A DNA stretch of 64,000 bases from assembly GCA_017551505.1 (NCBI GenBank), contig JAFZLL010000032.1, positions 1 to 64,000 on the forward strand, written 5' to 3'. The position numbers and the translations under genes are program-made. Of the stretch, positions 51,180-56,044 are shown in pieces; the first letter of the stretch is position 1, and every line of letters begins with the position of its first letter. The stretch is from Eubacteriaceae bacterium. Its GTDB lineage: Bacteria > Bacillota > Clostridia > Eubacteriales > Anaerofustaceae. Below the pieces are notes generated by a model, which was not told the origin of the DNA, did not search any database, and worked only from the letters and a program-made list of their open reading frames with translations.

Positions 51180-51589
51180 ATCATCCCTCCGTGCTGCAGG
51201 CAGTACTCGATCATTTTTCGCTGCGATAAACTGATGAGGCGCCTTAGTGGCGGCCATATCACATAACATTGCAGTCTCTATCGTCTCGGAGAATGCATTT
51301 GCAAAGGATCGGCCGGAGCCATTATAGCAGTATTCATTTCGTTTGTCATTGGCCAGCTTTCATTTCAGTCAACAACCCGGTTCATTTGCAAATGGGTTTC
51401 AATCGATGAACTGTCATGCCGGTGATAGGCATTAATGAATGATGATATGATCACAAAACGTATTATTGTGTTGGCTTAAGGAGCATAGGCGTGCTCTTCC
51501 TTTTCGCCTTGCTGTTCTTGATATAAAACCATACTGTGATAAAATGTAATATAATCTGTACGTTATGGGCAGGGTATACGTGTTATATA

Positions 51590-51780
51590 ATTCGCAGCAA
51601 CTGAAATGGCGGTTCTGGGATATTTAGGAAAAACAGGCGACCATGCTAAATAACAGATGCTGCCTCCGCTGTGAATACCTACAAGATGACAAGGGCGAAC
51701 ACCGGCAACGAGAAAAATCAGAAGGCGGATTATCCTGCCGGGTGATTGTGCACTGTTAAGAGGTTAATAAGGAGACCTGA
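51590..51780 (+). promoter_or_regulatory. Candidate structured leader (possibly cobalamin-riboswitch-like) upstream of cbiL
   Basis: The 709-bp gap between chorismate mutase and cbiL has no gene. Within it, after TGTAATATAAT (-10-like, near 51550), there is a leader of about 300 nt with complementary segments, for example CACCGGCA (51700) with TGCCGGGTG (51736). The segment CTGCCTCCGCTGTGAATACC (51660-51679) loosely recalls the conserved core of cobalamin riboswitches, followed by AAGATGACAAGG where AAGTCAGGA is expected. The match is imperfect and the idea leans on the corrinoid genes downstream. Confidence 0.33.
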
Positions 51781-51888
51781 TAGATAATGTACTGAGTCGT
51801 TATTTTCTGCACATTTTCAACTGATAAGATTACAGCCGTGAAGACTATGTTATTTGCAGTCAGCACGGTTTTTATAAGGAGGATTGTC

Positions 51889-52578
51889 ATGAGAGGAATC
51901 GCTTATGGTGTTGGAGTCGGCCCCGGAGATCCGGAGCTTATGACTCAAAAAGCTATCCGTTTGATCAGGGAAAACGATGTGATTGCAGTTGCAGGCAAAA
52001 CAGCTACAGAAGCAGTTGCTTATCAGATCGCTGCCGCCATGGTGCCTGAGATCCAGGATAAAGAACTGCTGCCGATCTATATGCCAATGGTCAAAGACCG
52101 GGATCTGATCGATGCTGAGCATCAGAAAGGCGCAAAATTACTGGAAAGCTATCTTGATAAAGGGCAGAATGTTGTCTACATCACTTTAGGTGATCCTACC
52201 ATTTACTGTACTTTCAGTTATCTCCAGCACATATTGGAGAAAGACGGATACACGGTGGAACTGGTGCCTGGTATCACCTCCTTCTGTGCTGCATCTGCCA
52301 GGCTGAATCTTCCGCTGGTAGAGTGGGATGAACCTCTTCATGTCGTTCCTGCAGTACATAAAACACACGAAGAATTGGATCAGCCCGGAACATATGTGCT
52401 GATGAAGTCCGCCAGCCATATGCAGGAAGTTAAAGAGATGCTGCGGCGCAGCGGACTGGATGTTTCCGCTGTTGAGAATTGCAGCATGGAAACAGAGAAG
52501 GTCTACCGCAGTGTGGATGAGATTCCTGATGACGCTGGTTATTTCTCATTGATAATAGCCAAAGAGCACCATGATTGA
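51889..52578 (+). CDS. cbiL: Precorrin-2/cobalt-factor II C20-methyltransferase
   Basis: A 229-residue SAM-dependent tetrapyrrole methyltransferase that adds the C-20 methyl to cobalt-factor II (or precorrin-2) on the way to corrin. The N-terminal GVGVGPGDPELMTQKAIRLI is the family signature. YITLGDPTIYCTFSYLQ is the second substrate/SAM region, and VPGITSFCAASARLNLPL the third. The ATG at 51889 follows AAGGAGGA. It overlaps the next ABC ATPase gene by 8 bases. No other cbi genes are here except cbiK, the step just before. Confidence 0.93.
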   Translation: MRGIAYGVGVGPGDPELMTQKAIRLIRENDVIAVAGKTATEAVAYQIAAAMVPEIQDKELLPIYMPMVKDRDLIDAEHQKGAKLLESYLDKGQNVVYITLGDPTIYCTFSYLQHILEKDGYTVELVPGITSFCAASARLNLPLVEWDEPLHVVPAVHKTHEELDQPGTYVLMKSASHMQEVKEMLRRSGLDVSAVENCSMETEKVYRSVDEIPDDAGYFSLIIAKEHHD

Positions 52579-53407
52579 GATTAGGAACCTGACAAAACGG
52601 TTCGGGGATTTTACAGCGGTTGATCACTTAAACCTCACGGTCAATACCGGAGAGTTCTTCGGATTGCTTGGGCCTAATGGAGCAGGGAAGACCACGACCA
52701 TCAGCATGATGTCCACGGTATTGCTGCCATCTGAGGGAGAGATACGTATCGATGGACAGCTGTTGGACCGTAAGGCGTCGAACCAGAAGAGAAAACTCAG
52801 TGTCATAACGCAGGAGTACTCCATGCGGCAGGATATGACTATTGACGAAGTGATGGAGTACCAGGGACGTCTGTATCATCTTCCAAGGAAGATGATGCTC
52901 GAGAAAAGCGACGAACTGTTGGAATTCGTTGGACTTAAAGAATACCACCGCCGCACAGTGCGCCATCTTTCGGGAGGGATGAAGCGCAAGGTGATGATCT
53001 GCCGAGCTCTTCTTATCGAACCTGAGATATTGATTCTGGATGAACCTACCGCGGGAATGGATGCCCTATCCCGCCGCCAGATGTGGAATCTTCTCAGGCA
53101 GGTGAATGGGAGAGATATGACCATCATCCTGACGACTCATTATATAGAAGAGGCTCAGGCTCTCTGTGACAGGGTCGCGCTGATAAATCGGGGATCTCTG
53201 CAAAAGCTGGATACACCATTAAATCTAATAGATGAACTTGGCGCATATGCGGTGGACGAGACGACAGAAGACGGTCTTAAGAGCAGGTTCTTCAGTAACA
53301 GGGACGAAGCGATCTCGTATCTTTCTCAGGCAGGCGAAATGGCTTCTTTCCGCGCAACCACGCTCGAAGATGTATTCGTGGAATGCGCCGGACGCAAAAT
53401 AAGTTAG
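52571..53407 (+). CDS. ABC-2 type transporter ATP-binding protein
   Basis: A 278-residue ABC ATPase of the exporter (NatA/DrrA/CcmA-like) group. Walker A GPNGAGKTT (about 34-42), Q-loop ITQEYSMRQDMTIDE, signature LSGGMKRKVMICRAL, Walker B ILILDEPTAGMD, and H-loop TTHYIEEA. A C-terminal extension of about 60 residues follows. It pairs with the permease encoded 11 bp downstream. Overlap with cbiL indicates joint expression. The cargo is unknown; context suggests a tetrapyrrole or a surface component. Confidence 0.9.
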   Translation: MIEIRNLTKRFGDFTAVDHLNLTVNTGEFFGLLGPNGAGKTTTISMMSTVLLPSEGEIRIDGQLLDRKASNQKRKLSVITQEYSMRQDMTIDEVMEYQGRLYHLPRKMMLEKSDELLEFVGLKEYHRRTVRHLSGGMKRKVMICRALLIEPEILILDEPTAGMDALSRRQMWNLLRQVNGRDMTIILTTHYIEEAQALCDRVALINRGSLQKLDTPLNLIDELGAYAVDETTEDGLKSRFFSNRDEAISYLSQAGEMASFRATTLEDVFVECAGRKIS

Positions 53408-53418
53408 GTGGTAATACT

Positions 53419-54150
53419 ATGGGTATAATAACTGTGTTATGGGAAAAGTGGGTGGAGTTTCGCCGTGATTTCTATAAGATTACTGTCTCAGCCATGATAT
53501 CACCGCTTATGTATCTCGTGATTTTTGGTATGGGGATACAAACGACATCGCACGGAGAGCCATATCTTCATTTTTTAATCCCTGGGATTGTTTCCATGGC
53601 CACTATGACCGGTAGCTTCAGTGCGATCTGTCAGAATATGAGCGTCCAGCGTCTTTATGAAAAGGCTCTGGATCAGGTTATGGTCTCTCCGACTCCTTTG
53701 TGGCAGTTTATACTTGGGCAGATCATAGGCGGAAGCCTCAGGGGGCTTTATGCCGGCTGCATCATTTTATTCCTGACGTGGCCTATCCGTACGGATCTTA
53801 TATTCAATGGGCTGTCCATTCTGATAATGTTCCTCAACGGCACCGTTTTTTCTACCATCGCTCTGGTCCTTTCCTTCCTTGCAAAGAGTTATTCTGATGC
53901 TCCGCGCTTCACGTCTTTTATCATTACTCCGATGTCGTTCCTGTGCAACACGTTCTTTTCGACTGAACAGATGCCTGCAGGCTTCCGGCAGCTCATATCT
54001 CTGCTGCCGTTGTCTCAGACAAGCGCTATGATAAGGGCCATCGCAAATGAGGAGTCACCGGGCATATTTGGATTTTTGGTGCTCGGGGTTTATCTTGTCG
54101 TGTTCGGGATCATATCGGTGGTCTTCATCTATAAGAAAAAGAATCTCTGA
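53419..54150 (+). CDS. ABC-2 type transporter permease
   Basis: A 243-residue integral membrane protein with six helices and the ABC-2 layout: a short cytoplasmic start (VLWEKWVEFRRDFYKITVSAMISPLMYLVIFGMG) and the conserved late block FIITPMSFLCNTFFSTEQMPAGFRQLISLLPLSQTSAMIRA, which is the ABC-2 signature. It forms a homodimer driven by the preceding ATPase. The ATG at 53419 is preferred over one inside the ATPase gene. cbiK follows 11 bp later. Confidence 0.9.
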   Translation: MGIITVLWEKWVEFRRDFYKITVSAMISPLMYLVIFGMGIQTTSHGEPYLHFLIPGIVSMATMTGSFSAICQNMSVQRLYEKALDQVMVSPTPLWQFILGQIIGGSLRGLYAGCIILFLTWPIRTDLIFNGLSILIMFLNGTVFSTIALVLSFLAKSYSDAPRFTSFIITPMSFLCNTFFSTEQMPAGFRQLISLLPLSQTSAMIRAIANEESPGIFGFLVLGVYLVVFGIISVVFIYKKKNL

Positions 54151-54161
54151 GGAGAAATGCG

Positions 54162-54965
54162 ATGGAAATAAAGAACGGAAAAAAGGCTCTGCTTGTCGTC
54201 AGTTTCGGTACTACATATTCCGATGCACAGTCCCATATCACTGATGTGGAGACTTCACTGCGCAACGCTTTCCCGGACCATTCTTTTTACCGCGCATGGA
54301 CAAGCAATGTGCTGCGGAAAAGACTTGAAAAAGAAGGCGAACATATATTTTCTGTAGAAGGCGCGCTGGAATGCATGGATTCAGAAGGTGTGGAAGAAGT
54401 AGTCGTTCAGCCTACTCACATGCTTTACGGGGAAGAATATCGTCGCACAGAAGAAACGGTGCGCTTTTATGCGGAACGGTTCAATAAGCTCTCTGCCGGA
54501 GCCCCGCTGTTGGCTGATGAGGATGATGTGACTGCGCTGACCGGTATCCTTGAAAAAGAATATCCGGTAGAATCCGGGGAGCTCCTTGTTCTTATGGGCC
54601 ATGGAAGTGCCAGTATGTCTTTCCCTGTATATGATCTGATGGAACGGCAATTCAACCTTGATGGGTTTAAACAGGTGTGTATAGGTACTGTAGAGTTTGA
54701 CCCTGGTATTGAACCAGTTCTGACCCGCATTAGACGGGCAAAGCCTAAACGAGTGCATTTGGTCCCTCTGCTGGTTTCGGTAGGCGGACATGTCATCAAC
54801 GATATGGCAGGAGACGGAGAGGATTCCTGGAGGAATCAGATCTTAAGGGAAGGTACCGAAGTGAAATGTCACCTGACAGGACTTGGGGAAGTTGAAGCGG
54901 TGAGGGAAATGTATATTCAGCATGCAAGATGCGCACGGGTCATAACGGAGGATGTATCGAAATGA
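54162..54965 (+). CDS. cbiK: Sirohydrochlorin cobaltochelatase CbiK
   Basis: A 267-residue class II chelatase that inserts Co(II) into sirohydrochlorin to give cobalt-factor II, the substrate of CbiL. The active site matches CbiK: His147 (LMGHGSA), Glu178 (TVEFDPG) and His210 (SVGGHVINDMAGDGEDSW). The N-terminal LLVVSFGTTYSDAQ is the first beta strand of the fold. No signal peptide, so cytoplasmic. GAGGAGAAATGCG precedes the ATG. The stop overlaps the next gene by four bases (ATGA). Confidence 0.94.
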   Translation: MEIKNGKKALLVVSFGTTYSDAQSHITDVETSLRNAFPDHSFYRAWTSNVLRKRLEKEGEHIFSVEGALECMDSEGVEEVVVQPTHMLYGEEYRRTEETVRFYAERFNKLSAGAPLLADEDDVTALTGILEKEYPVESGELLVLMGHGSASMSFPVYDLMERQFNLDGFKQVCIGTVEFDPGIEPVLTRIRRAKPKRVHLVPLLVSVGGHVINDMAGDGEDSWRNQILREGTEVKCHLTGLGEVEAVREMYIQHARCARVITEDVSK

Positions 54966-56044
54966 AACTTAAACGATATATGCTATTTATTCTGATCGTT
55001 TTCTTTGCTCTCTCCGCTGTTTTCCCTTCCTGCGCAGTTGCAGTGGACGCAGAAGAAGACGATTTCGTGCAGCGTGTAACGGATGCCAAAAAGGAGATAT
55101 CGACAAAAAGTGCGGGTTATTACGGTATGGTGCCTATCTACGGGCGTGATATCACGGACGGAACATACGAGATCAAGGTCCACTCATCATCTCCGTATTT
55201 CCGCATATCAAAGGCTATTCTGACAGTCAACGGCGATGAAATGACTGTCAGATTCACCATTCCCAGTATGAGCTATACTTATGTATACCCTGGTACAAGG
55301 AAAGAAGCAAGCGAGGCTGACGAAGCCAAGTGGATAGGATTTGAAGAAGAGAACCGTCAGACGACGTTTACTTTTCCTGTGCCTGCTCTAAACGCAGAAC
55401 TGGAATGCGCGGCGTACAGCAAAAGGAGGAAAATGTGGTACAGCCGCATATTGGTTTTTGATGCATCTTCATTGCCAAAAGAGGCTTTAGCTTTCGACCT
55501 TCCAGACTATGAGCTTATAGAAAAGGTTCTCAGAGAATATAAAGCTGTAGGAAGTGAGGAGCTCAAAGAACAGCGGCAGCTTGCAGCGGAAGCTCTGGTA
55601 CCGGTGACTATGGATCTGGATGACGGAGAGTATTCCATCGAAGTCAATATGACAGGAGGCAGCGGAAGAGCCAGCATCAGTTCGCCTACACTTCTTACGA
55701 TCCGTAACGGAAAGGCATATGCGACACTGTTGTGGAGCAGTGTCTACTATGATTACATGATCATTGATGGAGGATACTTTTATAACATGACAGAAGGCGG
55801 TGGACCGTCATCCTTCGAGATCCCCATCACCGCAATGGACGAACCTATGTCAGTAATTGCCGATACTACAGCAATGGGAGAACCGGTAGAGATACAGTAT
55901 ACATTGACTTTTTATGCCGAGAGCGTGGGTGATAAGAGTCAGATACCCCAGGAATCAGCCAAGATGGTGCTGGTCACAGCCTGCATAATCATCGTCGGAG
56001 GCGGGCTGCTGGATTATTGGGTCAAGAAGAAAAGAAAAGCATAG
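54962..56044 (+). CDS. Exported, membrane-anchored two-domain surface protein of the cbiL/cbiK operon
   Basis: A 360-residue protein. A signal peptide (YMLFILIVFFALSAVFPSCAVA) is followed by two beta-rich domains. Domain 1 is at about 45-165 (DGTYEIKVHSSSPYFRISKA, then VRFTIPSMSYTYVYPGT and FTFPVPALNAELECAAYSKR). Domain 2 is at about 205-325 (DGEYSIEVNMTGGSGRASIS, then ATLLWSSVYYDYMIIDG and FEIPITAMDEPMSVIADT). A C-terminal transmembrane helix and a Lys-rich end follow. Both domains repeat the plan DG-x-Y-x-I/V ... Y-x-Y/D-Y ... FxxPxxAL/MD, reminiscent of NEAT-type ligand-binding domains. It probably binds a ligand, perhaps a tetrapyrrole, at the surface. The family name is uncertain. Confidence 0.7.
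   Translation: MKLKRYMLFILIVFFALSAVFPSCAVAVDAEEDDFVQRVTDAKKEISTKSAGYYGMVPIYGRDITDGTYEIKVHSSSPYFRISKAILTVNGDEMTVRFTIPSMSYTYVYPGTRKEASEADEAKWIGFEEENRQTTFTFPVPALNAELECAAYSKRRKMWYSRILVFDASSLPKEALAFDLPDYELIEKVLREYKAVGSEELKEQRQLAAEALVPVTMDLDDGEYSIEVNMTGGSGRASISSPTLLTIRNGKAYATLLWSSVYYDYMIIDGGYFYNMTEGGGPSSFEIPITAMDEPMSVIADTTAMGEPVEIQYTLTFYAESVGDKSQIPQESAKMVLVTACIIIVGGGLLDYWVKKKRKA

Follow-up and report, generated by a model that had tools for sequence, protein, structure and literature searches.

Why should two enzymes of early vitamin B12 synthesis share an operon with a membrane pump and a surface protein? The question is raised by positions 51889-56044 of a 64,000-nucleotide stretch of DNA (the window; positions 1-64,000 of contig JAFZLL010000032.1, assembly GCA_017551505.1) from a Eubacteriaceae bacterium (Anaerofustaceae). 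Five intact plus-strand genes without internal stops follow one another here, namely cbiL, the ATPase and permease of an ATP-binding cassette (ABC) transporter of the ABC-2 type, cbiK, and a gene for a surface protein. The spacing across the block is -8, +11, +11 and -4 bases; cbiL and the ATPase gene overlap by 8 bases, and cbiK and the surface protein gene by 4. The block very likely belongs to the B12 pathway, and its pump probably serves B12 production or the capture of cobalt. Its features are as follows.

51889..52578, plus strand: cbiL, (cobalt-)precorrin-2 C20-methyltransferase, 229 amino acids (TIGR01467, Pfam TP_methylase, tree position)
52571..53407, plus strand: ABC transporter ATPase, DrrA/NodI type, 278 amino acids (ABC_tran, drrA model)
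53419..54150, plus strand: ABC-2 permease, 243 amino acids (ABC2_membrane)
54162..54965, plus strand: cbiK, class II (cobalt) chelatase without signal peptide, 267 amino acids (Pfam CbiK, active-site residues)
54962..56044, plus strand: membrane-anchored surface protein with two NEAT-like domains, 360 amino acids (AlphaFold2 model, fold search)
54962..55021, plus strand: N-terminal helix of the surface protein, presumed signal peptide, residues 1-20 (model helix 3-20, hydrophobic N-terminus)
55151..55462, plus strand: domain D1, residues 64-167 (hhalign to the C-terminal domain of a CbiK protein on contig C54)
55613..55930, plus strand: domain D2, NEAT fold, residues 218-323 (fold match to IsdX1; sequence match to a lipoprotein on C54)
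55946..56038, plus strand: C-terminal membrane helix, residues 329-359, with an IPQEAAKKVL-like lead-in and a KKKR tail (model; conserved in the 38-row alignment A4)
51663..51678, plus strand: 16-base match to the cobalamin riboswitch of a related locus (L145), possibly a decayed riboswitch (blastn)

The five genes are real coding sequence and not chance frames, since their non-synonymous differences from four relatives (L121, L122, L132 and L145; 0.04-0.32 per site) are far below the synonymous ones (0.72-0.87 per site). The CbiL protein scored 197.9 bits against TIGR01467 (cobI_cbiL), above the curated equivalog cut-off of 163.25, and 168.9 bits against Pfam TP_methylase. CbiK reached 221.1 bits against Pfam CbiK (cut-off 26.2) and 205.1 bits against the NCBIfam model for sirohydrochlorin cobaltochelatase CbiK (NF047852), under the equivalog cut-off of 400; it is not assigned to that equivalog, and its metal specificity is therefore not fixed by family score. 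The active site of CbiK is intact, as an earlier note made from the sequence alone had held: His147, Glu178 and His210 align with the active site of Salmonella CbiK (PDB 1qgo), whose catalytic histidines are His145 and His207 according to the consulted part of PMC7689651. The protein has no signal peptide. The ATPase scored 115.6 bits with ABC_tran and 255.7 bits with drrA, under the drrA cut-off of 312.45. The permease scored 74.1 bits with ABC2_membrane and is 76-93% identical to the permeases of its best 80 relatives. With an ABC ATPase and an ABC2_membrane permease in one operon, the block is classed as encoding an ABC-2 exporter, and by family membership the pair would transport outward. 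Coordinates, intact frames, family scores and the synonymous/non-synonymous comparison agree with the five genes and the order that the earlier note had given, and the gene spacing and the ABC_tran and ABC2_membrane scores uphold its coupling of cbiK and cbiL with the exporter pair. In the rest of the 64-kb window, a search of the genome gave no further TP_methylase or CbiK match, and CbiD sits on another contig; for these three markers, the absence of other cbi or cob genes nearby was correctly noted.

The fifth protein is predicted to have the NEAT fold, that of heme carriers. Its AlphaFold2 model had a mean predicted local distance difference test score (pLDDT) of 90.8, NEAT structures ranked first in a fold search with this model, and D2 matched heme-bound IsdX1 (3sik) with a Z of 12.2 and a root-mean-square deviation of 2.3 over 105 residues. 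At the sequence level, the protein scored 23.7 bits against Pfam NEAT, below the cut-off of 32.8, and the same model matched 19 of 38 relatives at E up to 0.1 (best 3.7e-9). A sequence search of the PDB with the NEAT alignment gave no match at E up to 1, and the link came only through the fold search. D1 is regarded as NEAT-like by sequence homology, with weak additional support from two-domain alignments to IsdB and IsdH. The relatives of the protein (37 rows) are 47-73% identical to it.

Is the block an oddity of this one genome? The permease-alignment search gave 250 relatives, of which the best 80 were analyzed, and an isolated curiosity could be rejected because the unit recurs among them and is carried by many B12-producing bacteria of the gut. 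The five-gene order, whose conservation the earlier note had proposed to check, is conserved in these 80 as a unit cbiL-ATPase-permease-(cbiK)-NEAT, usually beside hemC, cobA/hemD, sirC or cbi genes. The unit contains cbiL in 65 of the 80 loci, cbiK in 34 and a NEAT gene in 70, and a further precorrin or cbi gene lies within the fetched stretch in 61. Ten loci have no NEAT gene in the unit; four of them (L184, L186, L189, L190) have one just upstream and five (L167, L176, L177, L196, L197) stop at or almost at a contig end, which leaves L199 as the sole locus with neither. One locus (L101) reads hemA-hemB-hemL-hemC-cobA/hemD-cbiL-ATPase-permease-cbiK-NEAT-sirC, and two others (L102, L103) resemble it with the NEAT gene reversed. 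A fusion of the cbiK and NEAT genes, suspected from long open frames, was dropped; these are separate genes with frames extending upstream. A search of the literature outside subscription papers found no description of a cbiL-ATPase-permease-cbiK-NEAT unit.

The assignment to B12 synthesis rests on 50 unit genomes, hand-picked from the best 80 mostly for longer contigs. CbiD was present in 48 of the 50, a count for which there is no matched control (in the class as a whole CbiL matched in 81 of 391 genomes, but this is another marker at another threshold). Exactly one CbiL was found in 47 of the 50 genomes, two in 2 and none in 1. Because the CbiL of the unit is normally the only one and cbiD is nearly always present, the block is best placed in B12 synthesis.

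The genome that carries the window (1.56 Mb in 63 contigs, 96.6% complete) was then considered as a whole. Contig C8 holds cbiC, cbiD, cbiF, cbiG, cbiH and a cbiJ-E-T fusion, plus cbiA, the start of which lies on C54. These contigs contain no cbiL, and the only CbiK on them is a separate and longer protein, whose start is cut off by the end of C54 and which carries a NEAT-like domain at its C-terminus. C54 additionally encodes a small NEAT-like lipoprotein, a Peripla_BP_2 protein, a FecCD permease and an ATPase. D1 of the window surface protein is homologous to the C-terminal domain of the C54 CbiK protein (hhalign probability 97.4, E 1.2e-11), and D2 is 45% identical to the lipoprotein (probability 99.5); since both homologues sit on C54, the importer and exporter loci share binding domains. 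The hemC, cobA/hemD and hemB genes and a sirC-like gene of C33 were named by inspection and from homologous genes of L101. A second cbiL lies on C18; it is 39% identical to the window gene and has a cobalamin riboswitch after it. On C59 a riboswitch precedes yet another CbiK, this one with a signal peptide; both other CbiK proteins of the genome are longer than that of the window. Judging by the genes on C8, C54, C33, C18 and C59, the genome is equipped to build the corrin ring. As far as this ring is concerned, a truncated B12 pathway was rejected for this genome, and the earlier suggestion of a cobalt tetrapyrrole made or handled "rather than full B12 synthesis" is not supported: the search for the remaining pathway that the note had proposed found cbiA, C, D, F, G, H and J/E/T on other contigs (C8 and C54) and a second cbiL on C18. 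The note had also named two findings that would speak against it, a cbi operon elsewhere lacking only cbiK and cbiL, and an unrelated substrate for the exporter. The first of these was found, as C8 and C54 carry a cbi set without cbiL and with CbiK only as the separate longer protein; an unrelated exporter substrate was not found.

Contig ends of this genome (the ends of L016 and L019, and the end of L015 with the start of L018) overlap by exactly 141 bases. These overlaps suggest that C18 and C59, and likewise C8 and C54, are neighbors in the assembly graph.

Riboswitches of the cobalamin class generally control genes of synthesis and uptake, and as a rule they act as off-switches. An Rfam cobalamin riboswitch was detected in 13 of 20 unit loci (L101, L121, L122, L127, L130, L132, L133, L134, L143, L144, L145, L149 and L161), which is not an unbiased rate, as eight of the nine loci in one batch were chosen after a motif-scan match; at the gathering score, none was detected in L102, L103, L124, L128, L136, L139 and L146. 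In several loci the riboswitch lies ~50-160 bases from the first unit gene. The motif scan itself matched 27 of the 80 loci, and shuffled sequence gave 0.2 matches on average over all sequences scanned. NiCo riboswitches were also present in the fetched unit stretches, at L127:14253-14336 and L134:14038-14119.

In several relatives the pump is linked to an importer. L144 and L149 have one riboswitch followed by ATPase-permease-NEAT-sirC and then genes for a substrate-binding protein (SBP), FecCD and an ATPase; CbiK comes next in L144, and the SBP was not called in L149. L132 and L134 add cbiL and cbiK to this pump-NEAT-importer set, L134 being judged from open frames. L130 and L133 have a back-to-back pair of riboswitches, one directed towards the unit and the other towards the genes for CbiK, SBP, FecCD and an ATPase. 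L144, L132, L134 and, with the SBP uncalled, L149 combine ring synthesis with both an exporter and a chelate importer; the genome of the window has them at different loci. In the window's own taxonomic order, homologues of the ABC-2 pair (35-52% identical) are found in another context, beside CobN, ChlI and ChlD-like genes in most of 20 loci (L051-L070), with families verified for single genes. In these loci (e.g. L060:1384-9856) the pair sits between CobN and the ChlI/ChlD-like genes, in some cases with CbiZ, radical SAM or BtuCD-like genes. As in the window, a homologous pair stands beside a tetrapyrrole metal chelatase, but the chelatase is of another class and no NEAT gene was detected there. 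Being beside CbiK here and CobN/ChlI/ChlD in its own order, the ABC-2 pair travels with two unrelated classes of tetrapyrrole chelatase.

The localization of the chelatases was assessed from ~110 CbiK matches in 51 genomes, of which 40 were read, 20 chosen as long and 20 others. All 20 long proteins have a hydrophobic N-terminus, and 12 a lipobox pattern; among the other 20, 15 have no signal, four have a lipobox and one (L236) is unclear. For comparison, 45 of 81 CbiL-positive genomes were searched for CbiK, and 42 gave a match. In six of the 45 (G160, G311, G366, G400, G405, G410; loci L249, L252, L260, L261, L265, L267), the sole CbiK-family match is secreted and there is no CbiX-like match, CobN lying outside this search; G160 was counted as secreted by eye, against its automated label. 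Such genomes raise the question of where cobalt gets inserted. L251 (G349) was labelled secreted and left out of the six, as its start is doubtful and the second CbiK match of the genome was not read. L266 (G176) has a secreted CbiK beside a shorter one, and the secreted label of L268 was an artefact of the core pattern. CbiX was discarded as an alternative chelatase, its matches coinciding with CbiK genes except at G471:C159.

What, then, might the pump carry? The best explanation, because it uses most of these facts, is a shuttle in which a tetrapyrrole serves as a cobalt-catching metallophore; we put it forward tentatively, as possible rather than probable. The early anaerobic arm of B12 synthesis, in which CbiK would insert cobalt and CbiL methylate C20, would be joined to a dedicated transport arm. 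The ABC-2 pair would pump an early, mainly metal-free sirohydrochlorin-type tetrapyrrole out of the cell, and the NEAT-like protein, anchored beside the pump, would take over the exported ring. Cobalt would enter the ring outside the cell, either spontaneously or with the help of secreted CbiK proteins, and the loaded ring would come back through an importer of the BtuF/FecCD type to CbiL and the later pathway. Substrate, direction, extracellular cobalt loading and re-import are the parts of this shuttle that we infer. The earlier note had imagined a cobalt isobacteriochlorin moved across the membrane or bound at the surface; tetrapyrrole export with surface binding stands as the best reading, given the NEAT fold and the conserved order, with the particular substrate a conjecture. 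More generally, gut B12 makers might insert cobalt outside, exporting metal-free rings that are held by NEAT proteins, loaded by secreted CbiK and re-imported, so that a B12 intermediate acts as cobalt metallophore; this we consider unlikely.

Several observations weigh against the shuttle. Extracellular loading is not forced, as 15 of the 20 further CbiK proteins have no signal peptide, and the window unit, like many others, carries a CbiK of this kind that could load cobalt inside. No pump is known from the six genomes whose sole CbiK-family match is secreted. PDB 9b86, "heme-binding protein FetB", closely matches the window CbiK, and secreted CbiK relatives may bind heme only. The heme-binding motif of Isd-type NEAT domains is YxxxY, with an axial tyrosine. 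D2 does not have this motif: at the corresponding position the first tyrosine is V, L or I in 38 of 38 rows and the second is invariant (by eye). For this reason, binding of a metal ring is unproven. The earlier note had described an anchored two-domain protein that might bind a tetrapyrrole at the surface; two NEAT-like domains and a C-terminal membrane helix agree with the anchored two-domain form. One genome (G452, locus L136) has an ATPase-permease-CbiK-NEAT unit with neither a cbiD nor a CbiL match, which may reflect an incomplete assembly or another use. Finally, no Rfam cobalamin riboswitch lies in the window itself; in 51250-51900 none appeared with the E limit raised to 10. The stretch at 51663-51678 matches the L145 riboswitch by blastn (16 bases at 93.75%, with an E of 0.03 or 0.021) and may be the remnant of a decayed one.

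The pump might instead be an overflow valve that removes early isobacteriochlorins piling up or wrongly metallated when the pathway is turned on while cobalt is short, with the NEAT protein protecting the surface or allowing salvage. The close linkage to hemC, cobA/hemD, sirC, cbiL and cbiK fits such a valve, as do the many units with a signal-less CbiK, which make cobalt insertion inside possible; however, a pure valve needs neither a NEAT partner conserved at 47-73% identity over 37 rows nor a FecCD importer in the same operon, and we regard it as doubtful. That the pair works inward, with the NEAT protein as receptor for corrinoids or other tetrapyrroles that spare or feed the pathway, is unlikely: the riboswitches that precede the unit in relatives are usual for uptake as well as synthesis genes, but the families matched are exporters by name (DrrA/B, NodI/J), and an importer of the BtuF/FecCD type is already present in the window's genome and in many relatives.

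Release of finished B12 or cobamides to neighbors would suit the presence of cbiD in 48 of 50 unit genomes, and bacterial cobamide export is an open problem in the parts of PMC10203341 and PMC11071462 consulted. Against this stand the riboswitches, by which, if they are off-switches as is usual, pump expression would be tied to B12 shortage, and the neighbors seen, which are early genes (nucleotide-loop genes were not searched for); such a role seems highly improbable. ABC-2 pairs of this type move many things and NEAT domains elsewhere bind heme, so that another cargo, e.g. heme, a lipid or a peptide, with the pump in the operon for regulatory reasons, has also to be weighed. Homologous pairs beside tetrapyrrole genes in two settings (CbiK/CbiL, and CobN/ChlI/ChlD in the own order) make it not very likely.

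The nearest described arrangement is that of Desulfovibrio, where cbiK-cbiL and btuCDF stand under one B12 element (PMC545781), much like the units of relatives with cbiK, cbiL and transport genes under a cobalamin riboswitch. However, the transporter there is the B12 importer BtuCDF, and the described part mentions neither an ABC-2 pair nor a NEAT protein. The structures PDB 1qgo and 2xwp, which we take to be Salmonella CbiK (the organism partly from PMC7689651), belong to the same fold family as the window CbiK, which keeps the active-site His and Glu; it differs from the Salmonella enzyme in its score, too low for the NCBIfam equivalog, and in its operon partners, a pump and a NEAT protein. 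FetB (9b86) and a "chelatase, putative" (2xvx) are of the CbiK family too, but the window CbiK is without signal peptide; the two longer CbiK proteins of the genome resemble this secreted type, that on C59 with a signal peptide and that on C54 cut by the contig end. With Isd-type NEAT hemophores (IsdX1, IsdC, Hbp2, IsdH), the window protein has the NEAT fold and surface location in common, and it differs from them in its linkage to B12 genes and an ABC-2 pair, in the missing first heme-motif tyrosine of D2 and in a score short of the Pfam cut-off. According to the consulted parts of PMC10203341 and PMC11071462, no bacterial exporter is known for B12-type rings. If a conserved pump is indeed tied to the early corrin steps, gut-bacterial B12 physiology would gain a part so far missing from it, with a bearing on cobalt acquisition in the crowded gut, on the outward membrane crossing of such rings, and on why many unit genomes keep one CbiK inside and one outside.

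The window cbiL may have a foreign origin. Its product is at most 40% identical to CbiL proteins of its own order, and 71% and 53-55% identical to those of other families. In a 29-row tree it groups with L121 (100/99), among the unit rows and apart from three own-order rows (100/100); the seven unit rows require two changes, with L104 falling among them. Tree position and identities together point to transfer between lineages.

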